A DNA stretch of 64,000 nt from Gemmataceae bacterium (GTDB lineage Bacteria > Planctomycetota > Planctomycetia > Gemmatales > Gemmataceae): positions 1 through 64,000 of the forward strand of contig JAQGHQ010000063.1 in the NCBI GenBank assembly GCA_028288765.1, in the 5' to 3' direction. Each line of letters starts with the position of its first letter. Position 1 is the stretch's first letter. Below the pieces are notes generated by a model that saw only the letters and a program-made list of their open reading frames with translations, searched no databases and was not told where the DNA came from. The position numbers and the translations under genes were made by a program. Positions 21,718 through 63,677 of the stretch are shown here, one piece after another.

Positions 21718-23118
21718 CTACTTCACCCGGGCCGGGGTGAGTTTACCGAGGTTGTCGAACAGCCGGACCAGGGACGACATCAGCTTCTTGAAGTCGCCCT
21801 CGTGCAGGCTCTCGTTCGGGGCGTGGGCGTTGCTCGCCGGGTCCTCGATCCCCATGAGGAGGGCCGGCGCCCCGCCGAACAACTCCGACAGTGGGCCGAC
21901 GAACCCGATACTCCCGCCGCACCCGATTGCCACCGGGTCCCGGTCGAACCCCGTCCGCATACCGGCCAGAGCGGCCTCGAACGCCGGGCCGTTCGGGTCG
22001 GTCATCCACCACTTCACCGGCGGGCCGTACGGGGTTACCTTCACCTCGACCCCCCAGGGCGGGTCGGTCGTCAGGAACGCCGTCAGCTGCGCCAGGACCG
22101 CCTCCGGCTCCTGGTCCGGGACGATCCGACAGCTCACGAGGGCGGATGCTTTCGGCAGCACCTGATTCGATGCCCCCTTGATCGAGCTGGCCTCCTGGGC
22201 GATCACCGTCACCGCCGGCCGCCGCCACGTCTGCTCGTACTCGGTTAGCCCCCGCTCGGTCGCGAACCGGGCCGACGGGACCATGCCGATTTCCTGCCGG
22301 AACTTCGCCTCGTCGAACGGCAGCTTCCGGAACGCCTGCCTCTCCTTGTCGGTGAGCACCCGGACCTGGTCGTACAGGCCGGGGATCGGCAGAGGGCCGT
22401 TGTCCCAGTACAGCCGGCCGAGGATGGCGTTCAGGGCGACGGCCGCGTCCGGCAGCCCGCCCCCGCCCATCCCGCTGTGGACCGGGATCTTCGCGCTCGT
22501 GACCTCCACGTGGACCGCCACGATCCCGCGGAGGGAGTACGTGATGCTCGGGGTGCCGACCTCGATGTTCTCGGTGTCGCACACCACGATCACGTCCGAC
22601 TTGATGCGCTCGCGGTGGACTTCGAAGAACTTCAGCAGGTTCTTCGACCCGATCTCCTCCTCGCCCTCCACCAGCACCTTGATGTTCACCGGGAGCTGGT
22701 TCGTGGTCTTGCGGTAGGCGGCGACCGCCCCGAGGAGGGCGCTGATCGCCCCCTTGTCGTCGGCGGCCCCGCGGGCGAACAGGCGGCCGTCCCGGCGGGT
22801 CAGCTTCCACGGGTCGGACCGCCACTGCTCGACGAAGTTGATCGGCTGGACGTCGTGGTGGGCGTACAGGAACACCGTCGGCTTGCCCGGGGCCTCCAGC
22901 CATTCCCCGTAGGCATACGGCAGCGAGTGGCCGACCCGGAGCACGTCCACGTTGTGGAGCCCGGCGTCTCTCATCTGGGCGGCGGTGAGGGCGGCGGTGC
23001 GGTCGATTTCGGCGAGATGTTCGCCGTCGGTGCTGATACTCGGGATGGCCACCAGGTCCGCCAGCCCGTGGACGATCTGCTCGTGGTTCAGCGTCAGCCA
23101 GTTCAGAGCCTCTTGCAT
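21718..23118 (-). CDS. M20-family metallopeptidase (dipeptidase/deacylase type)
   Basis: A 466-residue zinc hydrolase of the M20/M25/M40 family, cytoplasmic (no signal peptide). Metal and catalytic motifs are visible in order: YAHHDVQP (His ligand and catalytic Asp), GAADDKGA (bridging Asp), EGEEEIGS (catalytic Glu and ligand), a CDTEN segment, and the dimerisation-domain HSGMGGGG. The final ligand region is SNAHAPNES. Length and order fit di/tripeptidases such as the carnosinase-like members. A purine-rich ribosome site (GAGGGGGAC) precedes the ATG. It converges with the SDR gene. Confidence 0.92.
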   Translation of the reverse strand: MQEALNWLTLNHEQIVHGLADLVAIPSISTDGEHLAEIDRTAALTAAQMRDAGLHNVDVLRVGHSLPYAYGEWLEAPGKPTVFLYAHHDVQPINFVEQWRSDPWKLTRRDGRLFARGAADDKGAISALLGAVAAYRKTTNQLPVNIKVLVEGEEEIGSKNLLKFFEVHRERIKSDVIVVCDTENIEVGTPSITYSLRGIVAVHVEVTSAKIPVHSGMGGGGLPDAAVALNAILGRLYWDNGPLPIPGLYDQVRVLTDKERQAFRKLPFDEAKFRQEIGMVPSARFATERGLTEYEQTWRRPAVTVIAQEASSIKGASNQVLPKASALVSCRIVPDQEPEAVLAQLTAFLTTDPPWGVEVKVTPYGPPVKWWMTDPNGPAFEAALAGMRTGFDRDPVAIGCGGSIGFVGPLSELFGGAPALLMGIEDPASNAHAPNESLHEGDFKKLMSSLVRLFDNLGKLTPARVK

Positions 23119-36218: not shown

Positions 36219-37301
36219 ATGACCGCCAGGCACCGATCCTCCTACCTCCTGTCCGACCGCCCGGCGGTATGGTCTCTTGCCCTGACCGGGATTGTCTTCG
36301 CGATCGACCTGTCCCTTCCGCTCGGGGTGGCCGCGGCGGTCCCCTACACGTTCGCCGTTCTGCTCGCGCTCAAGGCCCGCGCCAGGTGGTTTGCACCAGC
36401 CCTGGCGGCGCTCTGCTGGGTGCTGACCGTCGCTAAAATGGGACTGGTTCCCGAACGGGGGACCACGGAGTACTGGAAAATCCTCGTCAATCGGGGCCTC
36501 GCGCTGTTCGCCATCGGGATGACTACCTTTCTCGGAGTCCGTCGGCGGCAGGCTGAGACCGAGCGGGCCGAGGCCGAGGAAAAAGCCCGGGAACACCTCG
36601 CGACCCTCGCCCGAATGGGACGGTTGCACACTGCCGGTCAGCTGGCTACCGGGCTGGCCCACGAGCTGAACCAGCCGCTTACCGCGGTCTGCCTCCAGGC
36701 CGAGACCGCCACCCGGCTCGCGGAGGGTGGTGCGCAAGTGCCAGACCTGTTGCCCACCCTCCGGGAGATTGCCGAGCAGTCTCACCGGGCCGCCGACATT
36801 GTCCGGGGGCTGCGGCGGATGCTCCGCCAGGACGAACCCGCCCCGACCCAGGTCGACGTAAACGAGGTCGTCCGTGCCGTCTGCCGCCTGATCGACACCC
36901 AGACGCGCCGGGCGGGAGTCGACGTTCGTCTCGAACTGGCTCCTGTCCCGCCGGTCCGCGGCGACCGGGTCCAGCTCGAACAGGTGGTGTTGAACCTGCT
37001 TCAGAACGCGGTCGAGGCTGTGTCAGGCATTACAACCGACCCCCGGGTCGTGACCGTCGCGACGAGCTCGGACGGACCGGACCGGGTGACAGTCCGCTTC
37101 CGTGACACAGGAGCGGGTTTGCCGCCCGGGGACGAACACCGTCTGTTCGAGCGATTCTTCACGACCAAGCCGAACGGAATGGGGATGGGCCTGGCGATCA
37201 GCCGATCGATCGTCGAAGCCCACGGCGGGCAGGTCTGGGCAAACGCGGCCCCGGACCGGGGTGCGGTATTCACCTTCACTCTGCCGGCCGGAAAGGGGTA
37301 A
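36219..37301 (+). CDS. Membrane-bound sensor histidine kinase (FixL/NtrB-like)
   Basis: 360 residues; AGGGA precedes the ATG. The N-terminal 105 residues hold about four hydrophobic helices (ALTGIVFAIDLSLPL, VPYTFAVLLALKA, FAPALAALCWVLTVA, GLALFAIGMTTFLG) with no PAS domain. A short coiled coil leads to the phosphoacceptor motif LAHELNQPLTAV (His about 148), then the N box (VVLNLLQNAVEAV), DTGAGLPP, an F box (FERFFTTK) and a G2 box (NGMGMGLAISR). The H-box sequence is of the FixL/NtrB class. The response regulator gene follows five bases later. The pair lies directly upstream of the nitrate assimilation genes, so control by nitrogen or redox state is plausible but unproven. Confidence 0.92.
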   Translation: MTARHRSSYLLSDRPAVWSLALTGIVFAIDLSLPLGVAAAVPYTFAVLLALKARARWFAPALAALCWVLTVAKMGLVPERGTTEYWKILVNRGLALFAIGMTTFLGVRRRQAETERAEAEEKAREHLATLARMGRLHTAGQLATGLAHELNQPLTAVCLQAETATRLAEGGAQVPDLLPTLREIAEQSHRAADIVRGLRRMLRQDEPAPTQVDVNEVVRAVCRLIDTQTRRAGVDVRLELAPVPPVRGDRVQLEQVVLNLLQNAVEAVSGITTDPRVVTVATSSDGPDRVTVRFRDTGAGLPPGDEHRLFERFFTTKPNGMGMGLAISRSIVEAHGGQVWANAAPDRGAVFTFTLPAGKG

Positions 37302-37306
37302 CAGAG

Positions 37307-37924
37307 GTGGAACCGGAGCCCACGGTCTTTGTCGTGGACGATGACGCGGCGGTTCTCCGGGCGATCGCCGGGGCCGGGAAGGTGCTCGGCCGTCCGGTCC
37401 GGTCGTTCGCGTCCGCCGCCGAATTCCTCACGGCCTACGACCCCGCCCAGCCCGGGTGCCTCGTCCTGGACATCAAAATGCCCGGGATGACCGGGCTGGA
37501 ACTCCAGCAGGAGCTGGCCGACAAAGGACTCACGATCCCGATCGTGGTGGTGAGCGGTCACGCGGACGTGCGGATCGCGGTGGAGGTGATGACCCGCGGG
37601 GCGGTGACCCTGCTCGAAAAACCGTTTCGGCTCGACGAGCTCCTGACACACCTCCGCGCGGCGCTCGAACTGGACGCGGCGGATCGGGCGCGGGCGGTTC
37701 GACAGGCCGAAACCGATTCCCGTCTCGCCGTTCTCACACCAAAAGAGCGTGAAGTCCTCGAAGCGGTGGCCACCGGGAAAACGAACAAGGAGATCGCGGA
37801 AGAACTCGGTCTGAGTCTTCGGGCGGTCGAAGACCGCCGGGCCCGTCTGATGAAAAAGGTCCAGTGCCGGTCGGTCGCCGAGCTGATCCAGATGCTCGCC
37901 GACCGCCAGGGCACCGGGCTATAG
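37307..37924 (+). CDS. FixJ/NarL-type response regulator
   Basis: 205 residues from a GTG start with GAAAGGGG upstream, just after the kinase stop. The receiver domain shows the acidic pocket (FVVDDDAAV), the phosphoacceptor Asp in LVLDIKMPG (about 55), the conserved SGHADV segment and LLEKPF with the switch Lys. A LuxR-type helix-turn-helix follows (LTPKEREVLEAVATGKTNKE, IAEELGLSLRAVEDRRARLM). It should bind DNA and activate sigma-70-type promoters when phosphorylated by the partner kinase. The next genes downstream are the nitrite/nitrate cluster. Confidence 0.92.
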   Translation: MEPEPTVFVVDDDAAVLRAIAGAGKVLGRPVRSFASAAEFLTAYDPAQPGCLVLDIKMPGMTGLELQQELADKGLTIPIVVVSGHADVRIAVEVMTRGAVTLLEKPFRLDELLTHLRAALELDAADRARAVRQAETDSRLAVLTPKEREVLEAVATGKTNKEIAEELGLSLRAVEDRRARLMKKVQCRSVAELIQMLADRQGTGL

Positions 37925-38073
37925 TCGAACGCATCTCCAAGCATCATTTCTGCTCACTCTCCTTGCCCGGGATGCCAACCTCTCGGGCACCCGGCTCAGG
38001 CCTGGACGCGGATCACCAAGAGCGCGCCGGGGAAAACTCAGAAAAGCACATCGCCACGAACTCCGGCAATACC

Positions 38074-38122
38074 ACGTGGTTTACCACGTATTACTCGTCT
38101 CGATGCGTGGCAAACCACGCAT
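38074..38122 (+). promoter_or_regulatory. Two matching inverted repeats CGTGG-N4-CCACG
   Basis: ACGTGGTTTACCACGT (38074-38089) and ATGCGTGGCAAACCACGCAT (38103-38122) are both perfect inverted repeats with the same CGTGG/CCACG arms and a four-base spacer. Their centres are 31 bases apart, close to three helical turns, so a dimeric regulator could bind both on the same face. They lie 12-60 bases upstream of the sigma-54-like promoter and ahead of cobA-nirB. The regulator is unknown. Confidence 0.6.
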
Positions 38123-38133
38123 GATCCGACCTC

Positions 38134-38148
38134 TGGCGCGTGACTTGC
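38134..38148 (+). promoter_or_regulatory. Sigma-54 (RpoN) promoter match upstream of cobA-nirBD
   Basis: TGGCGCGTGACTTGC fits the -24/-12 consensus TGGCRCG-N4-TTGC with correct spacing. Transcription would start near 38160, about 90 bases before cobA. A sigma-54 activator would bind upstream, where the paired dyads lie. Sigma-54 control of nitrogen genes is well known in other bacteria; its use here is inferred. Confidence 0.6.
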
Positions 38149-38250
38149 TAAGGCTCCCTTCCGTTCTCGAATCACCTTTTGCCCTGCGGCAAGAAATCCC
38201 GCACCCCGACCGCGAGACCGAAGCGCGGCCGGCCCGGAGGAAGTACGCCC

Positions 38251-39054
38251 GTGCCCGAGTTCGATCCACAGATCGGGATAGTCTCCCTCGTCGGTGCCGG
38301 CCCCGGCTCCCCGGACCTCATTACGGTCCGTGGCCTGGCCCTGCTTCGCCGGGCGGACGTGGTGGTGTACGACGCCCTCGTGCATCCCGGCCTGATCGCC
38401 GAGACACGCCCCGGGGCCGAGCACGTCTACGCCGGGAAGCGGGGTTACTGCGTCGGGTCAACGCTTCAAGAGACGATCAACGACGTGCTGGTCAGTCGCG
38501 CCCGGCAGGGACTCCGTGTGGTCCGCCTGAAGGGCGGTGACCCGTGCGTCTTCGGCCGTGGTGGTGAGGAGGCCGAGTACCTCGCCGGGCACGGCGTCCC
38601 CTTCGAGATCGTGCCGGGGATCACCACCGCGGTCGGGGCGTGTGCTGCGGCCTCGATCCCGCTGACCCACCGCGCCGCCGGCCAGTCGATCGCCCTCGTC
38701 ACGGGCCACTTCGATCCGGATTCACGAGAATGCACGCTCGACTGGGCCGCACTCGCCCGGATGAGCAGCATCGTCGTGTACATGGGCCTCCGCCACATCG
38801 AAAGACTGGCCGATCGGCTGATCGCCGCCGGTCTGTCCCCGGACACCCCGGCGGCGGTAATCGCGAACGCCACTCTGCCCAGCCAGGTCGTCGTCGACAG
38901 CCCACTGGACCGGCTCGCGGCCGCGACCCACGCGGCCGGGGTCCGGGCGCCGGCCGTGATCGTGATTGGTGAAGCGGTCGGGTACCGGCCGAAGCTTCTC
39001 GGGTCGGCTCCGTCGGCCTCCCTCCTTCCCGAATCACAAGGAGCTTTCGAGTGA
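38251..39054 (+). CDS. cobA: Uroporphyrinogen-III C-methyltransferase (SUMT)
   Basis: About 267 residues from a GTG start (VPEFDPQIGIVSLVGAG) with GGAGG ten bases upstream. It methylates uroporphyrinogen III to precorrin-2, the route to siroheme and B12. SUMT signatures are present: VGAGPGSPDLITVRG, VVRLKGGDPCVFGRGGEE, VVPGI-type PGITTAVGACAAASIPLTHR, and a SAM-site region VYMGLRHI. No CysG-type dehydrogenase/chelatase domain is fused. It is the first gene of the nitrite reductase operon and presumably supplies siroheme for NirB. Its stop overlaps the nirB start (GTGA). Confidence 0.94.
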   Translation: MPEFDPQIGIVSLVGAGPGSPDLITVRGLALLRRADVVVYDALVHPGLIAETRPGAEHVYAGKRGYCVGSTLQETINDVLVSRARQGLRVVRLKGGDPCVFGRGGEEAEYLAGHGVPFEIVPGITTAVGACAAASIPLTHRAAGQSIALVTGHFDPDSRECTLDWAALARMSSIVVYMGLRHIERLADRLIAAGLSPDTPAAVIANATLPSQVVVDSPLDRLAAATHAAGVRAPAVIVIGEAVGYRPKLLGSAPSASLLPESQGAFE

Positions 39055-41504
39055 TCATCCCCAACGACATTCGGAACGCCCCGGTTGCCCGGAAGCGACT
39101 CGTCGTGATCGGGAACGGCATGGCCGGGGCCAGATTGGTGGAAGACGTACTCGCCCTGGACCGCGACCAGTTCGAGGTCGTGATGTTCGGGGACGAACCC
39201 TACGGGAATTACAACCGCATCCTGCTGTCGAACGTGCTCAACGGGTCGCAGGAGGCGAAGGAGATCTTCCTCAACCCGCTCGCGTGGTACGAGGAGAACG
39301 GCGTCACCCTCCACGCCGGCAAGCGGGTGACGAGGATCGACCGCGACCGCCGGGTGGTGTCCGCGGACGGCGTCGAGGAGCCGTACGACGTTCTCGTGGT
39401 CGCGACCGGGTCGAAGCCGTTCGTCCCCCCGATCCCCGGGACTTCCCTGCACGGGGTGTTCGTCTTCCGGACGATCGACGACTGCCGCAACATCGCCGGG
39501 TACGCGAAGGACTGCAAGACCGCCGTGGTGATCGGCGGCGGGCTCCTGGGGCTGGAAGCGGCCAAGGGGCTGATGACCCACAACGTCGAGGTCACTGTGG
39601 TCGAGATGGCCCCGTGGCTGATGAGCGTTCAGCTCGACGAGGCCGGCGGAAAGGTCCTCCGCCAGACGATCGAGGCCATGGGCATCCGGGCCCTGACCGG
39701 GGCGAGCACGAAAGAGCTGGTCGGCCCCACCCGGGTGACCGGGGTGAAGTTCGGCGACGGGACCGAGGTCCCGGCCGACATGGTGGTGATCTCGGCCGGC
39801 ATCCGGCCGAACGTGGACCTCGCGAAGGAGTGCGGGATCGCCTGCGAGCGGGCGATCGTCGTCGACGACCAGATGCGGACCAGCGACCCGAACGTGTTCG
39901 GGGTCGGCGAGTGTGTCCAGCACCGGGGGATGGTGTACGGCCTGGTCGCTCCCCTGTGGGAACAGACGAAAGCCCTGGCCGCCGTCCTCACCGGGCACGA
40001 CACGGACCGGACCTACACCGGGTCGAAGATCGCGACCAAGCTGAAGGTGATGGGCGTCGAGCTGGCGAGTATGGGCCGGATCGGCGACCTCAAGGACACT
40101 GATGAGGTCGTCCAGTACAGCGAGCCGGCCCGCCAGATTTACTGGAAGGCGATCGTCCGCGGGGGAAAGCTGTCGGCCGCGTGCCTGCTCGGCGACCTCG
40201 GCCCGGCCGACAACCTGATGGGGCTCTTCAAGGCCGACGCCCCGGTGCCCGAGCGGCGGATGGAGATCTTCTTCACCCCGCAATCGGCGAGGAAGGACGT
40301 GTCTCTCGCCGACCTGCCGGACTCGCACCAGATCTGCGACTGCAACGGCGTCAGCAAGGGCCGGATCTGCGACGCGATCCGGGCCGGCAAGTGTACCGTC
40401 CCGGCGGTCGGCAAGGCGACCCGGGCGGGGACCGGGTGCGGCAGCTGTAAGACGCTGGTGAAGGGGCTGATCGAGGCGGTCGCCGGCGCCGTGAAGGCCG
40501 ACCCGTCCGAGTCCTGGTACGTCCCGGCCATACCGATGGACAAGCCGGCGCTCGTCGCCGAGGTCCGCCGGCGCGGGCTGAAGAGCGTGTCGGCGGTGCT
40601 CCGCGAGCTCGGCCGGGGCGAGGACGAGAAGAGCAAGATGGGCCTCGCGTCGCTGCTCAAGAGCATCTGGCACGACGAGTACGTCGACGAGCGGGACGCC
40701 CGGTTCATCAACGACCGGGTCCACGCCAACATCCAGAAGGACGGCACGTTCTCGGTCGTCCCGCGGATCTACGGCGGGGTCACCTCGGCGGACGACCTGA
40801 TCCGCATCGGCGAGGTCGCGAAGAAGTACGCCGTCCCGATGGTCAAGGTGACCGGCGGGCAGCGGATCGACCTGCTCGGGGTGAAGAAGGACGACCTGCC
40901 GAAGGTGTGGGCCGACCTCGGGATGCCGAGCGGGTATGCGTACACCAAGGCGTTCCGGACCTGCAAGACGTGCGTCGGGAGCGAGTTCTGCCGGTACGGG
41001 ACGAACGACTCGACGGCCCTCGGAATTGCGATCGAGAAGCGGTTCCAGGGGTTCGAGTTCCCGGCCAAGGTGAAGATGGCGGTGAGCGGGTGCCCGCGTA
41101 ACTGTGCCGAATCCACGGTGAAGGACGTGGGGGTGATCGCGACCGAGGGCGGCGAGTGGGAGGTCTCCGTCGGCGGGGCCGCGGGCGCGAGCGTCCGCAA
41201 ATCTGACGTGCTGTGCCGGGTGCGGACGCAGGAGGAAGCCCTCCAGGTCATCGGCCGGTTCCTCATCTACTACCGCGACACCGCGAAGTGGCTGGAGCGG
41301 ACCTACGACTTCGTCCCCCGGGTCGGGATGGACCGGCTCAAGAAGATCCTTCTCGACGACGAGCTCGGGCTGTGCGGCTACTTCGACCACGAGGTCGAGG
41401 CCACCATCGCGGCGTACGTCGACCCGTGGCTGGAACGCGAGAAGCCCGCGTATCCGGGCCAGTTCGAGGACACCCGGGCGATCCCCCTGCCGGTGCTGTC
41501 GTAG
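39051..41504 (+). CDS. nirB: Assimilatory nitrite reductase large subunit
   Basis: An 817-residue NAD(P)H-nitrite reductase from a GTG start overlapping cobA. Domains in order: FAD/NAD(P)-binding disulfide-reductase-like module (VVIGNGMAGARLVED, VVIGGGLLGLEAAKGL, VFGVGECVQHRG), a BFD-type [2Fe-2S] domain (CDCNGVSKG ... GTGCGSC), then the siroheme-[4Fe-4S] ferredoxin-like reductase with CVGSEFC (C-x5-C) and SGCPRNC (C-x3-C). It reduces nitrite to ammonium with six electrons in the cytoplasm. The length is normal. nirD follows 68 bases later. Confidence 0.96.
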   Translation: MIIPNDIRNAPVARKRLVVIGNGMAGARLVEDVLALDRDQFEVVMFGDEPYGNYNRILLSNVLNGSQEAKEIFLNPLAWYEENGVTLHAGKRVTRIDRDRRVVSADGVEEPYDVLVVATGSKPFVPPIPGTSLHGVFVFRTIDDCRNIAGYAKDCKTAVVIGGGLLGLEAAKGLMTHNVEVTVVEMAPWLMSVQLDEAGGKVLRQTIEAMGIRALTGASTKELVGPTRVTGVKFGDGTEVPADMVVISAGIRPNVDLAKECGIACERAIVVDDQMRTSDPNVFGVGECVQHRGMVYGLVAPLWEQTKALAAVLTGHDTDRTYTGSKIATKLKVMGVELASMGRIGDLKDTDEVVQYSEPARQIYWKAIVRGGKLSAACLLGDLGPADNLMGLFKADAPVPERRMEIFFTPQSARKDVSLADLPDSHQICDCNGVSKGRICDAIRAGKCTVPAVGKATRAGTGCGSCKTLVKGLIEAVAGAVKADPSESWYVPAIPMDKPALVAEVRRRGLKSVSAVLRELGRGEDEKSKMGLASLLKSIWHDEYVDERDARFINDRVHANIQKDGTFSVVPRIYGGVTSADDLIRIGEVAKKYAVPMVKVTGGQRIDLLGVKKDDLPKVWADLGMPSGYAYTKAFRTCKTCVGSEFCRYGTNDSTALGIAIEKRFQGFEFPAKVKMAVSGCPRNCAESTVKDVGVIATEGGEWEVSVGGAAGASVRKSDVLCRVRTQEEALQVIGRFLIYYRDTAKWLERTYDFVPRVGMDRLKKILLDDELGLCGYFDHEVEATIAAYVDPWLEREKPAYPGQFEDTRAIPLPVLS

Positions 41505-41572
41505 CCCCACGCGAAGTGGCCGGGTGGCATGCCCGACCCGATAGGCAGTCCGTGCTCCCCAGGAGAAAGACC

Positions 41573-41929
41573 ATGACCCCGCTCAACGTGATGCCCACGA
41601 CCCCGGCCGCCGTCGGCCAGCGCGTCGCGGTCTGTCGCCAGTGGGACATCCCACTCGGGCTCGGCCGGTCGTTCGAGGTGGCCGGCCGGCTGATCGGCGT
41701 GTTCAAGGCCCGCGACGGGTTGGTGTTCGCGGTGGCCGGCACCTGCCCTCACAAGGGCGGCCCGCTCGCCGACGGGATGGTCGTCGGGCACCAGGTCGTC
41801 TGCCCGCTCCACGCATTCCGGTTCGAAGCCCGGACCGGGACCTGCGACCAGCCGGGGGTGTGCGGGATCGCCGCCTACCCGGTCGAGGTCACCGGGGACA
41901 CCGTGTACGTCATTGTGCCCTCGGCCTGA
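41573..41929 (+). CDS. nirD: Nitrite reductase small subunit (Rieske-type)
   Basis: 118 residues from MTPLNVMPTTPAAV, with AGGAGAAAG just upstream. A Rieske [2Fe-2S] fold is shown by CPHKGGPLADG and CPLHAFRFEA, the Cys-x-His pairs. NirD partners NirB in NAD(P)H-dependent nitrite reduction; many NirD proteins lack the cluster ligands, but this one keeps them. It lies between nirB and the nitrate reductase gene, with 16 bases to the latter. Confidence 0.93.
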   Translation: MTPLNVMPTTPAAVGQRVAVCRQWDIPLGLGRSFEVAGRLIGVFKARDGLVFAVAGTCPHKGGPLADGMVVGHQVVCPLHAFRFEARTGTCDQPGVCGIAAYPVEVTGDTVYVIVPSA

Positions 41930-41945
41930 GCCCACAAGCGTGACC

Positions 41946-44069
41946 ATGACCAGCCTGCCGCTTGTACCCCCCGAAGCCCTCTCGGTCCGCACGCACTGCC
42001 CGTACTGCGCGTACCAGTGCGGGATGCTAATCGGGGACGGGACGGCCGACGCCCCCGGTACCGTCCAGGGCGACCCGCACTTCCCGGTGAATAACGGGGA
42101 GCTGTGCATCAAGGGGTGGACGTCGACCACCCTGCTCCGCCACCCGGACCGGCTGACTTCCCCGCTCGTCCGGGTACGTGGCGAGCTCCGCCCGGCGACG
42201 TGGGACGCTGCCCTCGACGCGACGGCCGAGGCGATCCGCGCGACGAAAGAGCGGTACGGGCCGGACGCGGTCGGGGTCTTCGGGTCCGGGGCGCTGACCA
42301 ACGAGAAAGCCTACCTGCTCGGGAAATTCGCCCGGGTCGCGGTGGGTACGGCGAACATCGATTACAACGGCCGCTACTGCATGTCGAGCGCCGCCGCGGC
42401 CGGGAACCGGGCGTTCGGGATCGACCGCGGCCTCCCGTTCCCGGTCTCGGACATCGAGAAGGCGGAGGTGGTCCTCCTGGTCGGGTCGAACGCGGCGGAC
42501 ACGCTGCCCCCGATCATGCAGTGGTTCGACCGGCAGCGGCGGGCCGGCGGCCGGCTGGCGGTGATCGACCCGCGGAAGACGGCGACCGCCCGGGCGGCGG
42601 ACCTATTCCTGCCGGTCACCCCCGGGTCGGACCTCGCGCTCGCGAACGGGTTACTCTACCTCGCCGTCGAGGAGAACCTGATCGCCCGGAAGTTCATCGA
42701 ATCGCGGACGACCGGGTTCGACGCCGTCCGCCGGGCCGTCCTGACTTACCACCCCGCCCACGTCGAACGGCTGACCGGGGTCGCCGAGGCGACGATGCGG
42801 AAGCTGGTCCGGTGGCTCGGTTCGGCCCGGTCGGCCATGATCCTGAGCGGCCGCGGCCCGGAGCAGCAGAGCAAGGGCGTGGACACCGCGAACGCGTTCA
42901 TCAACCTCGCCCTCGCGCTCGGGTTGCCGGGCAAACCGGCGAGCGGGTGGGGAACTCTCACCGGCCAGGGGAACGGCCAGGGCGGCCGCGAGCACGGGCA
43001 GAAGGCCGACCAGCTCCCCGGCTATCGGCTCATCGAGGTGGACCCCCACCGCGAGGCCGTGGCGAAGGTCTGGGGGGTCGACCCGGCGTCCCTCCCGCGG
43101 AAGGGGAAGAGTGCGTTCGAGCTGCTGGACGCGCTCGGCCCGGAAGGCGGGATCCGCTCGCTCCTCGTGATGGGATCGAACGTCGCGGTCGCGTCGCCGG
43201 ACCTGACCCGGATCGGATGCCGGCTCGCGGCACTCGACCACCTGACCGTGTGTGACGCCTTCCTGAACGAGACGGCCGCCCACGCCCACGTCATCCTCCC
43301 GGCGTACCAGTGGGCCGAGGAAGAGGGGACGATGACCAACCTGGAGGGCCGGGTGATCCACCGCCGGCGGGTGGCCCGGCCGCCGACCGGGGTACGGGGC
43401 GATATCGACATTCTTCGTGAGCTCGCGGACCGGCTCGGGAGCGGGGACAAGTTCGCGTTTCACTCCGCCCGCGACGTGTTCGAGGAACTCCGCCGGGCGA
43501 CGGCGGGCGGGACCGCGGATTACAGCGGGATCACCTACGAGCGGATCGACCGCGAGGACGGCGTGTGCTGGCCGTGCCCGTCCGAGGACCATCCCGGGAC
43601 CCCACGGCTGTTCGCCGACCGGTTCGCCCACCCGGACGGGAAGGCCCGCTTCTTCGCGGTCGAGCACCGCCCGGCCGGGGACGAACCGGACGCGCACTAC
43701 CCGTTCTACTTCACGACGGGCCGGTACCGGGAGCACTACAACTCGGGGGCCCAGACCCGGCTGGTCGGGGCGCTGACGAAGGCCCGCCCGCACCCACTCC
43801 TCCAGATTCACCCGGCCGCGGCGACCCGACACCGCGTCGGCGGCGGCAGCGTCGTCACCCTGGAGAGCCGCCGCGGCCGGGCCGAGTTCCGCGCGGAGGT
43901 GACGCCGGCGATCCGCCCCGATACGCTGTTCGCCCCGTTCCACTGGGGCGGGAGCGAGGCCGCGAATCAGCTCATCAACCCCGCCCTCGACCCGACCAGC
44001 TTGATGCCGGAGTTCAAGCTGGCCGCGGTCCGGATCGTCGCCGTCGGCACCCCGGTGGAGACCCCCTGA
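41946..44069 (+). CDS. nasA: Assimilatory nitrate reductase catalytic subunit (molybdopterin)
   Basis: 707 residues starting MTSLPLVPPEALS. The N-terminal [4Fe-4S] motif is CPYCAYQC with the fourth Cys in GELCIKGW. RYCMSSAAAAGNRAFG carries the expected Mo-ligand Cys of the NasA/NarB group. Further bis-MGD motifs are LLVGSNAADT, VIDPRKTATA, GRGPEQQSKG, LVMGSNVAVASP, TTGRYREHYNSG and the C-terminal binding domain. No Tat signal, so it is cytoplasmic. It reduces nitrate to nitrite, which NirBD then reduces. The stop overlaps the next start by one base (TGATG). The same protein is called NasC or NarB in other systems. Confidence 0.92.
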   Translation: MTSLPLVPPEALSVRTHCPYCAYQCGMLIGDGTADAPGTVQGDPHFPVNNGELCIKGWTSTTLLRHPDRLTSPLVRVRGELRPATWDAALDATAEAIRATKERYGPDAVGVFGSGALTNEKAYLLGKFARVAVGTANIDYNGRYCMSSAAAAGNRAFGIDRGLPFPVSDIEKAEVVLLVGSNAADTLPPIMQWFDRQRRAGGRLAVIDPRKTATARAADLFLPVTPGSDLALANGLLYLAVEENLIARKFIESRTTGFDAVRRAVLTYHPAHVERLTGVAEATMRKLVRWLGSARSAMILSGRGPEQQSKGVDTANAFINLALALGLPGKPASGWGTLTGQGNGQGGREHGQKADQLPGYRLIEVDPHREAVAKVWGVDPASLPRKGKSAFELLDALGPEGGIRSLLVMGSNVAVASPDLTRIGCRLAALDHLTVCDAFLNETAAHAHVILPAYQWAEEEGTMTNLEGRVIHRRRVARPPTGVRGDIDILRELADRLGSGDKFAFHSARDVFEELRRATAGGTADYSGITYERIDREDGVCWPCPSEDHPGTPRLFADRFAHPDGKARFFAVEHRPAGDEPDAHYPFYFTTGRYREHYNSGAQTRLVGALTKARPHPLLQIHPAAATRHRVGGGSVVTLESRRGRAEFRAEVTPAIRPDTLFAPFHWGGSEAANQLINPALDPTSLMPEFKLAAVRIVAVGTPVETP

Positions 44070-45517
44070 TGACCCGCAAACGACTCGCGATCGTGGGGAA
44101 CGGGATGGCCGCCGGCCGGTTGCTCGACGAGCTGGTCCGCCGGACCGCGACAGCCCTTTTCGACATCGCCGTGTTCGGCGAGGAAGTCCACGGGTCGTAC
44201 AACCGGATCCTCCTCGGGCGGATCATCGGCGGCGCGACGGCGGACGAAATTACTCTGAAGCCGCGGGCGTGGTACGCCGACCGGGGGGTCGTGTTCCACC
44301 CGGGGAAACTGGTCACCCGCCTCGACGCCACCGCCCGAGTCGCCCACACCCGCGACGGGGAACAACACCCGTTCGACGTCGCCGTCTTCGCGACCGGGTC
44401 GAAGCCGATCGTTCCCCCGCTCGACGGGCTCACGACCGGCGACGGAAAGCCGAAAGCCGGGGCGTTCGTTTATCGCACGGTCGAGGACTCCGAACAGATC
44501 CGCCGGGCCGCGCGGCCGGCGGGCAGCGCGGTGGTCCTCGGGGGCGGGCTGCTCGGGCTAGAAGCCGCCAAGGCGCTGTGCGACCTCGGCCTCCACGTCA
44601 CCGTCGTCCAGCGGGCCGACACGCTGATGAACGTGCAGGTCGACGCCCTCGGCGGCCGGTTCCTCCGGGCGGCCGTCGAACGGGCCGGGATCTTCGTCCG
44701 CACCGGCACCGGGGCCGTCGGGGTCCGCGGCGAGGACCGGATCACCGGCGTCGTTCTGACGACGGGCGAGATCCTCCCGGCCGACATGTTCGTACTGGCT
44801 TGCGGAATCCGCCCGCGGGTGGACGCGGCGGAAGCGTCGGGGGTGCCGGTGCGGACCGGGATCGTGGTGAACGACCTCCTGGCGACCTCCGTCCCGGGTG
44901 TATTCGCCGTCGGCGAGTGCGCCGAACACGACGGCAAGGTGTACGGGGTGGTCCCCCCGATCTGGGCCCAGTGCGAGGTGCTTGCCGACATCCTGACCGG
45001 GGCGAACCCGCAGGCCCGGTACCGGGGGTCGAAGCTGTACACGCGGCTCAAGGTGGCCGGGGTCGAGGTGGCGAGCATGGGGGTGGTCGAGCCGACCACC
45101 GACGCGGACGAGGTGATCCAGGTGATCGAGGACCGCCGGGGGATCTACCGCAAGCTGATCGTCCGCGACGGCAAGCTCGCGGGCGCCGTGCTGGTCGGCG
45201 AAACCGACTCCGCCCCCGCCCTCGCCCGGTGGTTCGACCGGGCCGACCCGCTGCCGCCGAACCGGCTCGACGTGTTCTGCTCGCCCGACGTTTTGGCCGC
45301 GGCGGCGGACCCGGAAATCTGCAACTGCCACCACGTGACACACGGCACCCTGGTCGGCGCGATCCGCGACGGCTGCACCACCCTGCCCCAGCTCTCGGCC
45401 GCGACCACGGCCGGGACCGGGTGCGGGTCGTGCCGCGGGGCGATCGCGAAGCTCATCCTCCAACACTCTCCCCGGACGGCCGACGCCGCGGTGACCGGCA
45501 CCGGGCGGTACGGCTGA
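44069..45517 (+). CDS. NirB-like flavoprotein with BFD [2Fe-2S] domain, likely nitrate reductase electron-transfer subunit
   Basis: 482 residues, ATG overlapping the nasA stop. It resembles the first half of NirB: FAD site LAIVGNGMAAGRLLDELV, NAD(P) site VVLGGGLLGLEAAKALC, VFAVGECAEHDGKVYG, and a C-terminal BFD domain (CNCHHVTHG ... GTGCGSC). The siroheme part is absent and no shadow of it follows. By comparison with NasB of Bacillus and NasC of Klebsiella it should pass electrons from NAD(P)H to the adjacent nitrate reductase. A distinct name is withheld because nas gene names conflict between species. An inverted repeat follows. Confidence 0.88.
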   Translation: MTRKRLAIVGNGMAAGRLLDELVRRTATALFDIAVFGEEVHGSYNRILLGRIIGGATADEITLKPRAWYADRGVVFHPGKLVTRLDATARVAHTRDGEQHPFDVAVFATGSKPIVPPLDGLTTGDGKPKAGAFVYRTVEDSEQIRRAARPAGSAVVLGGGLLGLEAAKALCDLGLHVTVVQRADTLMNVQVDALGGRFLRAAVERAGIFVRTGTGAVGVRGEDRITGVVLTTGEILPADMFVLACGIRPRVDAAEASGVPVRTGIVVNDLLATSVPGVFAVGECAEHDGKVYGVVPPIWAQCEVLADILTGANPQARYRGSKLYTRLKVAGVEVASMGVVEPTTDADEVIQVIEDRRGIYRKLIVRDGKLAGAVLVGETDSAPALARWFDRADPLPPNRLDVFCSPDVLAAAADPEICNCHHVTHGTLVGAIRDGCTTLPQLSAATTAGTGCGSCRGAIAKLILQHSPRTADAAVTGTGRYG

Positions 45518-45538: not shown

Positions 45539-45724
45539 ATGATTCACCGCAGAGGACGCCGAGATCGCAGAGGGATAGGGCCAGGACCAAGATCGGAACG
45601 CGACCGAATGGCATCCGGCGCCCGGCGCTTCCGGTCGCGGACCGGGCCTCTCGGTGACCACTCGTTCGTCCGACTTCTGACCCACTTTTCCTCCGCGGTC
45701 TCCGCGGTCTCCGCGGTGAATCAT
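45539..45724. repeat. Long inverted repeat with CGCAGAG/CTCCGCG arms between the flavoprotein gene and narK
   Basis: The left arm begins ATGATTCACCGCAGAGGACG and continues with CGAGATCGCAGAGGG; the right arm has three TCCGCGGTC-type units and ends CCGCGGTGAATCAT. The outer 14 bases pair exactly, the rest with some mismatches. The middle (about 115 bases) is not repeated. It resembles the element at 21581-21703 in layout. It may attenuate read-through into narK. Confidence 0.75.
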
Positions 45725-45754
45725 CGGGCCTGGTCACTATCAGAAAGGCACCCG

Positions 45755-47137
45755 ATGGCGCCGATGCCCCCTCACGACCCGCTCGAGTTCGAACCAGCCG
45801 GCCCGCGGCTGTGGGTGATGTGGCTGTCCGCGTGGGCGTTCACCGCCCTGTTCGCCGTCTGGCTGATGCTCGGCGTCCTCGGCCTGGAGATCAAGAAGGA
45901 CACCGCCCTGATGCTCGGCCCCGACGCCGCGACGGCGATGTCGCCGGCGCAGGTCAAGACCGCGGTCGAATCCCGGTTCGAGTGGCTCCTCGCGGTCGCC
46001 ATCCTCGCCGGCTCACTCCCCCGGCTGACCTTCGGGATCTGGGCCGACAAGTACGGCGGGCGGAAGGTGATGATCCTTCTGCTCGTGGCCTGTGCGGTCC
46101 CGACGTACGCGGTCAGCCACGTCGCCACTTACTGGGAGCTGCTCGGCTGTGCCGCCCTGTACGGGTTCGCGGGCAACGCCTTCACCATCGGCGTCTCGTG
46201 GAACTCGGCCTGGTTCCCGGACCGGTTGAAAGGGACGGCGATCGGGGTATTCGGGGCCGGCAACGTCGGGGCGTCCGGGACGAAATTGCTGGTCGTACTC
46301 GTGCCGACCGTACTCACGCTGGTCCCGGCGGCCGGGTACTACGGCGGCCTGGTGCCGGGCGGGTGGAGGTTCGTCCCGGTCGCGTACTCCGTCATGCTCC
46401 TCGCCACGGCCGCGGCGATTTACCTCGTCTGCCCGAAGGCGGATCGTACCCCCGGCCGGGGCCGGTCGCTGGGCGACATGATGGCGCCCCTCAGATACCT
46501 CCGCGTTTGGCGGTTCAGTCTGTACTACGTAGTCGTGTTCGGGGCGTACGTCGCCCTGTCGGCCTGGCTCCCGAACTATTACCGGAACACGTTCGGCGTG
46601 GACCTCCGGACGGCCGCCCTGCTCACCGCCCTGTACATCTTCCCGGCGAGCCTGCTCCGCCCCCTCGGGGGCTACCTGGCCGACCGGTTCGGCCCGCGGG
46701 TGGTGACGTACGGTGTGTTCGTCGTGATGACCCTCGCCCTCGTCCCCCTCTGCCTGCCGTCGCGCGTGCTGCACCTCGGCGTCGAGTGGTTCACGGTGCT
46801 GATGGTGGTGGTCGGGGCGGGGATGGGGATCGGGAAGGCGTCGGTGTTCAAATACGTGCCGAACTATTACCCGAAGGACGTGGGGGCGGTCGGCGGGCTG
46901 GTCGGCGCGCTCGGCGCGCTCGGCGGGTTCTTCCTCCCGCCGGTGTTCGGGGCGATCGGGCGGTGGACGGGAAGCCCGCAGTCGGCGTTCGTCGCCTTGC
47001 TCGTCCTCACCGTCGGCTCACTCGGCTGGTTGCACCTGGTCGTCCTGCGGATCAAACGGGCCGAGCGCGCGCCGGAGCTGGAAACATTCTCCCCGGGAAC
47101 GGCGGCCGTACCGGAGCCGATACCGGTCCGGTCGTAA
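45755..47137 (+). CDS. narK: NarK-family nitrate/nitrite transporter
   Basis: 460 residues, about twelve membrane helices, major facilitator superfamily. AGAAAGG precedes the chosen ATG (MAPMPPHDPLEF). NarK signatures are clear: a conserved Arg in LPRLTFGIWADKYGGRK, GNVGASGTK between helices, and the second motif GMGIGKASVFKYVPNYYP. It imports nitrate or exchanges nitrate and nitrite. It is the last gene of the assimilation cluster, separated from the flavoprotein gene by the inverted repeat. Confidence 0.95.
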   Translation: MAPMPPHDPLEFEPAGPRLWVMWLSAWAFTALFAVWLMLGVLGLEIKKDTALMLGPDAATAMSPAQVKTAVESRFEWLLAVAILAGSLPRLTFGIWADKYGGRKVMILLLVACAVPTYAVSHVATYWELLGCAALYGFAGNAFTIGVSWNSAWFPDRLKGTAIGVFGAGNVGASGTKLLVVLVPTVLTLVPAAGYYGGLVPGGWRFVPVAYSVMLLATAAAIYLVCPKADRTPGRGRSLGDMMAPLRYLRVWRFSLYYVVVFGAYVALSAWLPNYYRNTFGVDLRTAALLTALYIFPASLLRPLGGYLADRFGPRVVTYGVFVVMTLALVPLCLPSRVLHLGVEWFTVLMVVVGAGMGIGKASVFKYVPNYYPKDVGAVGGLVGALGALGGFFLPPVFGAIGRWTGSPQSAFVALLVLTVGSLGWLHLVVLRIKRAERAPELETFSPGTAAVPEPIPVRS

Positions 47138-61724: not shown

Positions 61725-63677
61725 CTACCTCGTCAGCCCGTACCCCTTGATCTTCCGGTCCAGGGTCGAGCGTTCGATCCCGAGGATCGCCGCCGCCTGC
61801 GATTTGTTCCAGTCGGTGTGGCGGAGCGTCTCCAGGATGTGCCGCTTTTCCACTTCTTCCAGCGACTCGGGCTTGTAGTGGAATGCGTTGCTCCCGCCGC
61901 CCGCCAGCGGGCCCAGGTCCAGCTCCGAGAGCCAGATGTCGGAGGCGTCGATCACCGGCCCCGACCCCAGGGCGACCGCCCGTTCCACCACGTTCCGCAG
62001 CTCCCGGACGTTCCCCGGCCAGCGGTACGCCTTGAGCTTCTGGATCGCCGGGTCGGTGAACCCGCGCATCTTCCGCCCGGTCTCCCGGACGAACCGCTTC
62101 AGGAAGTGGTCGGCGATCTGGGGCACGTCGTCGAGCCGGTCGCGGAGCGGGGGGACGTCGAGCTGAACCACCTGGAGGCGGAAGAACAGGTCGCGGCGGA
62201 ACGTCCCGGCTCGCACCGCCTCTTCCAGCGTCCGGTTCGTCGCGGCGACGACCCGCACGTCCACCTTGATCGGGGTGTTCCCGCCGACCCGCTCGAACGG
62301 GTGACCCTCCAATACCCGGAGGAACTTCGCCTGTGTGGACAGGGCCATCTCGCCGATTTCGTCGAGGAAGATCGTCCCGGCGTCGGCCGATTCGAACTTC
62401 CCGATCATCCGCTCGGTGGCCCCGGTGAAGGCCCCCTTCTCGTGCCCGAACAGTTCGCTCTCCAGCAGTGTTTCCGTGAGCGCGGCACAGTTCAGGCAGA
62501 CGAACGGTTGCTCCCGCCGCGGGCTCGAATCGTGGATGGCCCGGGCGACGAGTTCCTTACCCACCCCGCTCTCGCCGCGGATCAGCACGGTCGCCTTCGT
62601 CTCCGCCACCCGCCCGATCTGCGTCTCGATGTGGTTGAGGGCGGAGCTGTCACCGACCAACTGGCTTTCCAGGCGCAGCTGATCTTTCAGACTCCTCACC
62701 TCCACCGACAGCGTCGCCTGTTTGCGGAGGCGGTGCCAGACGGTACCGAGCTGCCGGGCGACGGCGAGGGTGAATTCCAGGTCGTCCGGGTTGAGTGGGG
62801 CGTGCAGACTGGTTCGGTACAGGTGCAACAGCCCGAGGATCTGGTCCTCCCAGAGAACCGGGGCGCAGATCAGGCTCGCGACGCGCAACTCGGCGATGCT
62901 GTCGCGGTCTTTGAGGTGGCGCTCCAGGGCCACGTTCTCTGCCAGTACCGCTTGCTTGCTCGACAGCACTTCGTGGCTGACGAAGTTCGACACCTTGTGG
63001 TAGGTCTGGTGTTCCGGCCCGCGGTGCCGGTAGACCACCGGCTCCAGTTCCCGCCCCTCCTTGAGGGCGAGGACGGCGCCCACCTGGGCCGGGGTCGCCC
63101 GGAATACCGCGTCGACGACCAGCTCCCCGAGTTCGGCCGGCGTCGTGGCGTCGGCCATATCGAGGGCGAGCCGGTACAGGGCCGCCAGGGCCTGAGCCGG
63201 GGCGACCCGTGTGTCCTGCCGGACCGGTTCGGCGGGCGGGGTGGCCCCGGGGGGCGGGGCGATCGGCGGCAGGTAGCGGGTGTTCCCGAGCCGCTTCTTG
63301 ATCTCAAGCCCGTCGCCCTTCTCGGTCGCCCGCGCCGATCGGGCCTGCGGCAGGTCCGGGAGCTGGGTGAGGTCTTCGATGAAGACGAGCTGGACTCGCC
63401 CGACCCGGACGTCGTCCTGCGGCGCGAGGCGGCGGTCCGTGCGGAGCTGGTCCCCGTTGACGTGGGTCCCGTTCAGGCTGCCGAGGTCGCGGATGAACCA
63501 CCCGCCCTCGGCCGGGAACACCTCGGCGTGTTCCCGGCTGCACAGGTCGTCCCGCAGAACAATCCGGTTCGTCGGCGTGCGGCCGAGGGTGTACCGCATC
63601 CCGTCCTGGAGCGGGTACACATCGCCGAACCCGTCGTCCCGACGGACAACGAGAAATGCGCTCGGATTGGTGGCCAT
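61725..63677 (-). CDS. Sigma-54-dependent transcriptional activator with FHA and GAF domains
   Basis: 650 residues. Order: FHA domain (YTLGRTPTNRIVLRDDLCSR, SLNGTHVNGD; about 10-105) that binds phosphothreonine, GAF domain (about 165-320), AAA+ domain with Walker A GESGVGKE, the sigma-54 contact motif GAFTGA, Walker B TIFLDEIGEM and the arginine-finger region, then a Fis-type HTH (LRHTDWNKSQAAAILGIERS). It should activate sigma-54 promoters, with input probably from a Ser/Thr kinase through FHA. Its targets are unknown; the sigma-54-like site at 38134 shows that such promoters exist here. Confidence 0.95.
   Translation of the reverse strand: MATNPSAFLVVRRDDGFGDVYPLQDGMRYTLGRTPTNRIVLRDDLCSREHAEVFPAEGGWFIRDLGSLNGTHVNGDQLRTDRRLAPQDDVRVGRVQLVFIEDLTQLPDLPQARSARATEKGDGLEIKKRLGNTRYLPPIAPPPGATPPAEPVRQDTRVAPAQALAALYRLALDMADATTPAELGELVVDAVFRATPAQVGAVLALKEGRELEPVVYRHRGPEHQTYHKVSNFVSHEVLSSKQAVLAENVALERHLKDRDSIAELRVASLICAPVLWEDQILGLLHLYRTSLHAPLNPDDLEFTLAVARQLGTVWHRLRKQATLSVEVRSLKDQLRLESQLVGDSSALNHIETQIGRVAETKATVLIRGESGVGKELVARAIHDSSPRREQPFVCLNCAALTETLLESELFGHEKGAFTGATERMIGKFESADAGTIFLDEIGEMALSTQAKFLRVLEGHPFERVGGNTPIKVDVRVVAATNRTLEEAVRAGTFRRDLFFRLQVVQLDVPPLRDRLDDVPQIADHFLKRFVRETGRKMRGFTDPAIQKLKAYRWPGNVRELRNVVERAVALGSGPVIDASDIWLSELDLGPLAGGGSNAFHYKPESLEEVEKRHILETLRHTDWNKSQAAAILGIERSTLDRKIKGYGLTR

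Follow-up and report, generated by a model that had tools for sequence, protein, structure and literature searches.

Twin CGTGG-N4-CCACG dyads upstream of a sigma-54 promoter for nitrite/nitrate assimilation in Gemmataceae: a probable operator of the adjacent FixJ/StyR-like two-component pair

Genes and elements around the twin dyads

The window analysed here, which is the whole stretch of 64,000 nucleotides, contains a nitrite/nitrate assimilation operon preceded by a sigma-54 box, two inverted repeats and the genes of a sensor kinase and a response regulator. The features considered below are the following:

36219-37301, plus strand: sensor histidine kinase with HisKA and HATPase domains and a hydrophobic N-terminal segment (Pfam, NCBIfam)
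37307-37924, plus strand: FixJ/StyR-like response regulator, receiver domain and LuxR/GerE helix-turn-helix (HTH) (PF00072, PF00196)
37972-37991: candidate distal enhancer, a block of the form RTGC-N9/10-GGGCAC located 162 bp before the sigma-54 box
38074-38089: dyad 1, ACGTGG-TTTA-CCACGT, perfect; candidate high-conservation operator, consensus YGTGGTTWNCCACGTAT
38103-38122: dyad 2, ATGCGTGG-CAAA-CCACGCAT, perfect; candidate promoter-proximal operator
38134-38148, plus strand: sigma-54 (-24/-12) element TGGCGCGTGACTTGC, a box conserved in relatives
38251-39054, plus strand: cobA/sumT, the leading gene of the operon, for uroporphyrinogen-III C-methyltransferase (sirohaem) (TIGR01469, 278.7 bits, cut-off 185)
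39051-41504, plus strand: nirB, nitrite reductase large subunit (TIGR02374, 845.6 bits, cut-off 578)
41213-41929 (ORF), plus strand: Rieske small subunit, nirD-like, with PF00355 in the C-terminal part
41913-44069, plus strand: assimilatory nitrate reductase catalytic subunit (nasA/nasC), with molybdopterin domains (NF047855, 797.6 bits, below the cut-off of 1100)
43565-45517 (ORF), plus strand: paralogue of the N-terminal half of NirB, an FAD/BFD reductase without the sirohaem domain (Pfam)
45539-47137, plus strand: MFS transporter, probable nitrate/nitrite uptake (PF07690)

The genes that follow the box on the plus strand are thus ordered cobA-nirB-Rieske-nasA-reductase-MFS, with the GTG at 38251 as the start codon of cobA. 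The real start of the Rieske ORF is later, past nirB, and that of the NirB paralogue is near 44066; from 44069 to 45457, this paralogue shares 47% identity with NirB residues 12-474. A gene resembling the N-terminal half of NirB, devoid of the sirohaem domain, also follows the nitrate reductase gene in nitrate reductase clusters of Gemmataceae.

The original prediction had proposed a sigma-54 promoter at this position, and several observations uphold it. With a simple sigma-54 matrix, TGGCGCGTGACTTGC scores 30.5 of 31.5, presenting a GG-N10-GC core with TGGCAC/TTGC-like elements, and a best box of 30 or more would arise by chance in a comparable stretch with a probability of approximately 0.0004. 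The source genome encodes rpoN (TIGR02395, 383 bits). In relatives, TGGCACANCAAATGCAAT or a near-consensus box is found with or without the dyads, most dyad-less genomes retain it, and few intergenic elements are as conserved as the -24/-12 box; a box such as TCTGGCACANCAAATGCAAT and the dyad YGTGGTTWNCCACGTAT are the two strongly conserved elements upstream of cobA/nirB. The transcription start is predicted near 38160.

The two perfect dyads with the same arms and with centres 31 bp apart, as originally described, are present, their CGTGG-N4-CCACG cores lying at 38075-38088 and 38106-38119. The stems are 6-8 bp long and perfect, with spacers of tetraloop size. The single dyad motif is not rare, as it has 44 copies in the 10-Mb genome versus 28 for the reversed control, and a third copy within the window, at 22509, is probably due to chance. 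The twin-dyad pattern has a single occurrence in the source genome, and only 2 of the 95 Gemmataceae genomes scanned contain it. Strict matches across the 95 genomes amount to 22, against 3 for the reversed control, which together with the conservation described below rules out a chance origin; the twin dyads are real and conserved.

Conservation of the dyads in two planctomycete families

In aligned Gemmataceae promoters of cobA, dyad 1 is matched at 9-10/10 upstream of the sigma-54 box in 18 cases (10/10 in 14 genomes and 9/10 in 4 more). The dyad was not conserved in lineages without a neighbouring response regulator. Conservation upstream of orthologous clusters, on which the original prediction had been made to depend, therefore holds for these 18 genomes and fails for the regulator-less lineages. 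There is a bias beyond the selected core, with TTW in the spacer and TAT after the right arm. In most genomes the dyads lie between divergent genes at a fixed spacing to the box: the distance from the start of dyad 1 is 47-50 bp in most genera, 59-60 bp in the source genome, G088 and G006, and 61 bp in G090. With regard to dyad 2, the copy in relatives is degenerate or weaker and in most cases falls +30 to +33 bp away from dyad 1; in some relatives a second dyad was not recognisable. In G014 (L185), dyad 1 reads CGCGG-N4-CCGCG, both arms being altered symmetrically, as expected under two-fold recognition. A Gemmataceae-like nas cluster, with a NirB identity of 73%, was also found in a record titled Bacteroidales bacterium (L011, JAIXLE010000176.1), which is probably misnamed or contaminated.

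The strict matches in the 95 genomes are nearly all at the nas locus. Thus, the suggestion that the dyad would be found at nirB, nasA, glnA and amtB stands for the nas locus, and strict motif scans of the same genomes gave no support for it at glnA or amtB. A wide nitrogen-gene regulon was rejected, as a loose scan for the dyad plus TGGC-N8-TGC gave approximately the control level, with mostly chance matches. The strict matches away from nas, in G006, G009, G010 and G012, are mostly within probable genes, with exceptions in G006 and G012. In the former (L116 4999), a perfect TTTGCGTGGTTTACCACGTATTT lies upstream of a ribose-phosphate pyrophosphokinase (PRPP synthetase) gene. In the latter (L120 5070-5126), two perfect dyads, 43 bp apart, are found between CheW-like and chemoreceptor-like genes, which may point to a connection of this regulator with taxis.

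A class-wide search for orthologues of the regulator found them in a second planctomycete family (f4), with 63-65% identity, divergent from nrtA and with dyads clustered in between. An ABC transporter operon of the nitrate type, coding for an NMT1_2 binding protein, a permease and an ATPase, runs divergently from the pair in G317 and G278. Each intergenic region contains three dyads (shuffle P < 0.001), the proximal one at 50 bp and 48 bp, respectively, from a sigma-54-like box. In other members of the family with nrtA beside the pair, this distance is 48 bp (G425, G426 and G371) or 37 bp (G391, G428 and G429). Several of the boxes in this family score only 26-27 of 31.5, values that chance reaches in about 1-4% of stretches. 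The arrangement was not shown by distant regulator homologues of the family (G353, G405, G406, G427, G159 and others). Additionally, a 10/10 dyad is located close to the kinase gene in G278 and G425, where that strand has no sigma-54 box within range; autoregulation would predict such a site. Across both families, the dyad-to-box distances of 37, 47-50 and 59-61 bp correspond to successive helical turns, with P-values for the helical phase that are indicative only and overstate the case because the genomes share ancestry.

The adjacent two-component pair and other candidate binders

The regulator gene ends 150 bp upstream of the dyads and went unmentioned in the original prediction. The closest solved full-length structures to its product are StyR (PDB, E=1.2e-37) and FixJ (3.9e-35). 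FixL and FixJ are the best NCBIfam profiles of the two proteins, both below the curated cut-offs; the regulator reaches 181 bits where the FixJ profile has a cut-off of 255, and is not assigned as a FixJ equivalog. In the kinase, no PAS or periplasmic domain was recognised with Pfam and NCBIfam. The recognition helix of the regulator, RAVEDRR, is invariant in 19 orthologues and presumably differs from that of FixJ.

Orthologues of the pair are present in 19 of the 95 Gemmataceae genomes, and in 13 genomes from six genera the pair is located next to cobA(-nirB) and the dyad, with both gene orientations represented. Where the pair adjoins cobA, an intergenic dyad is present irrespective of the orientation of the pair, and this extends to G023 and G048, in which nirB lies elsewhere; most genomes of both planctomycete families have the dyad next to the pair. 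Among 29 nirB-bearing Gemmataceae, 14 have both regulator and dyad, none has the regulator only, 2 have the dyad only and 13 have neither (Fisher 1.8e-6, uncorrected). At least 6 changes of the regulator are counted on the NirB tree; three of the four independent supported pairs agree with the association and none opposes it, a number of pairs with which the tree-corrected test cannot reach significance. Loss of the regulator in G020 is accompanied by a decayed dyad at the homologous position, at 49 bp. G013 and G025, which belong to one clade, have a perfect dyad 1 and no regulator homologue at E <= 1e-22. In G013 (L114 1235-1333), a kinase gene remnant of 33 residues adjoins the intact dyad, suggesting that its two-component system was lost recently. 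No dyad was found beside the regulator present in G021 and G034, and G088 and G090 carry the regulator without linkage to nas.

The binding sites of several known regulators were compared with the dyads. The original prediction had noted that the dyad is not the NtrC consensus, and indeed the best match to an NtrC site of the TGCACC-N5-GGTGCA type is 7/12 (shuffle P = 1.0). The NarL site, a heptamer 7-2-7 inverted repeat, was rejected as well (8/14, P = 0.92), and sites for NifA, FNR and NtcA matched no better than shuffles. The StyR/TodT box, ATAAAC-N4-GTTTAT (PMC5874301), was discarded on sequence (8/12, P = 0.23) and agrees in its 6-N4-6 geometry.

The closest parallels in architecture are StyS/StyR and TodS/TodT, which likewise combine a receiver with a LuxR-type HTH and 16-bp 6-N4-6 repeats, with several sites per promoter; phosphorylated StyR binds paired sites cooperatively (PMC2442086). 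In contrast to these systems, the half-site here is ACGTGG, the promoter is of the sigma-54 rather than the sigma-70 type, the target is nitrate/nitrite assimilation and the kinase has no recognised PAS or aromatic-sensing domains. FixL/FixJ resembles the present pair in being the best NCBIfam profile for both proteins and in the domain order of the regulator, and differs in that the scores here are below the curated cut-offs and that there is no haem-PAS domain and no nifA/fixK target. Known nas/nir systems are controlled either by NtrC and sigma-54 in combination with NasT antitermination or jointly by NarL/NarP and FNR (PMC12830290). The control of enterobacterial nirBD by NarX/NarL and NarQ/NarP is similar in placing a nitrite reductase operon under a two-component LuxR-HTH system, whereas here there is no NarL heptamer, no NarX-type periplasmic sensor was recognised and the promoter is of the sigma-54 type. 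NtrB/NtrC acting with sigma-54 at nas/nalA (NasR/NasT antitermination) shares the sigma-54 nitrate promoter and a second, pathway-specific input; however, the present promoter has no NtrC-consensus site and its second input appears to act at the level of DNA and not of RNA. Judging from these comparisons, the operator most likely works in a StyR/FixJ-like manner, yet on a sigma-54 promoter.

We estimate a probability of roughly 0.7 that the dyads are the operator of the adjacent FixJ/StyR-like pair, phased to the sigma-54 nitrite/nitrate promoter. The regulator is the proposed binder because of its linkage to the dyads, its co-occurrence with them in the phylogeny and the geometry of the operator. 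The same three lines favour a LuxR-HTH regulator over the RpoN-type (AAA+) activator that had originally been placed on the paired sites, and which is probably not their ligand. It is unlikely that an AAA+ activator of the NtrC class with a Fis-type HTH uses the dyads as its enhancer, the kinase and regulator genes being merely co-regulated or co-located, although three points favour it: there are about 26 AAA+ (PF00158) activator domains in the genome, G013 and G025 retain the dyad in the absence of the response regulator, and a classic layout for RpoN activators consists of two sites upstream of the promoter with roughly three helical turns between them. Nevertheless, enhancer sites are usually tolerant of distance and farther upstream, while the dyads are locked to helical turns at 37, 48-50 or 59-61 bp from the box and follow the presence of the response regulator in both families, at operons of two kinds. 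No AAA+ activator gene was seen beside the dyads and none of the approximately 26 candidates was linked to them. The contig that carries the operon also encodes, on the minus strand at 61725-63677, an AAA+ sigma-54 activator with a Fis-type C-terminus and, by eye, N-terminal FHA-like and GAF-like regions.

Moreover, the usual enhancer distance is occupied by another conserved block that does not track the regulator. Its form GTGCGCT-N6/7-GGGCACT is strong in Gemmata-like genomes, 161-165 bp upstream of the box, with motif statistics partly computed on the data that defined the block; in the source genome the sequence is weak and the distance, 162 bp, unchanged. The block is retained without the regulator at 150 bp in G020, 107 bp in G045 and 101 bp in G047. 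It was also seen in L036, L039, L046 and other cobA/nirB promoters. This block may be the true enhancer of a separate AAA+ activator.

Two further readings concern the promoter and the nature of the repeats. Were the sigma-54 box fortuitous, the dyads could serve the regulator at a sigma-70-type promoter or at the kinase and regulator genes only. FixJ/StyR-type regulators usually activate sigma-70 promoters from a site near -40 (PMC2442086), dyad 2 would lie at about -37 to -47, and some dyads near the kinase gene are boxless; the high conservation of the -24/-12 box and its maintenance in dyad-less genomes make this reading very improbable, and a role confined to the pair is at odds with the source genome and G006, in which the kinase genes are in the opposite orientation and cobA alone is thus preceded by dyads. 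RNA hairpins, as a terminator or leader, would explain the perfect 6-8 bp stems and the tetraloops, and can be almost wholly discounted given that the dyads are upstream of the predicted transcription start, mostly between divergent genes and at a fixed spacing to the box, with no T-run after them and no Rfam match.

A proposed two-input model of the nitrite/nitrate promoter

If the dyads are the operator of the adjacent pair, a dimer of the response regulator would bind each CGTGG-N4-CCACG site, dyad 1 tightly and dyad 2 more weakly. The sequence pattern suggests that this operator keeps to one side of the helix, with 37, 48-50 or 59-61 bp between it and the -24 element downstream, and that the promoters it serves are those of nitrite/nitrate assimilation and, in the related family, of nitrate ABC import. 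A LuxR-type regulator lacks the AAA+ ATPase and would therefore be unable to open an RpoN promoter alone. Opening would depend on a separate AAA+ activator, perhaps bound about 162 bp upstream, and the regulator could help or gate the use of the promoter via bending or contact near it. By analogy, it would most likely add a pathway signal, nitrate or nitrite. The simplest model thus has two inputs at one promoter, namely RpoN with its activator for general nitrogen control, and the two-component system for the pathway signal. Co-activation by the regulator appears somewhat more likely than repression.

A bolder proposal is that a non-AAA+ regulator of the FixJ/StyR type is an obligatory, face-of-helix-dependent partner of sigma-54 RNA polymerase, defining a planctomycete nas and nrt regulon; the regulator would, for instance, recruit the polymerase or an AAA+ activator without a DNA site of its own. 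We regard this as doubtful.

The idea of a new regulator, raised in the original prediction, holds with the FixJ/StyR-like protein encoded next to the dyads, and its being specific to planctomycetes is consistent with orthologues in two planctomycete families, within a search confined to the class. A literature search, with most subscription journals outside its reach, found no paper on the transcriptional control of nitrate assimilation in Gemmataceae and no described planctomycete counterpart. The analysis names the regulator pair, gives a consensus for its probable operator and puts forward a putative two-input promoter design across two planctomycete families. A LuxR-type operator in helical phase with a sigma-54 promoter would be unusual, and bears on how RpoN promoters may be tuned by regulators that are not AAA+ proteins.
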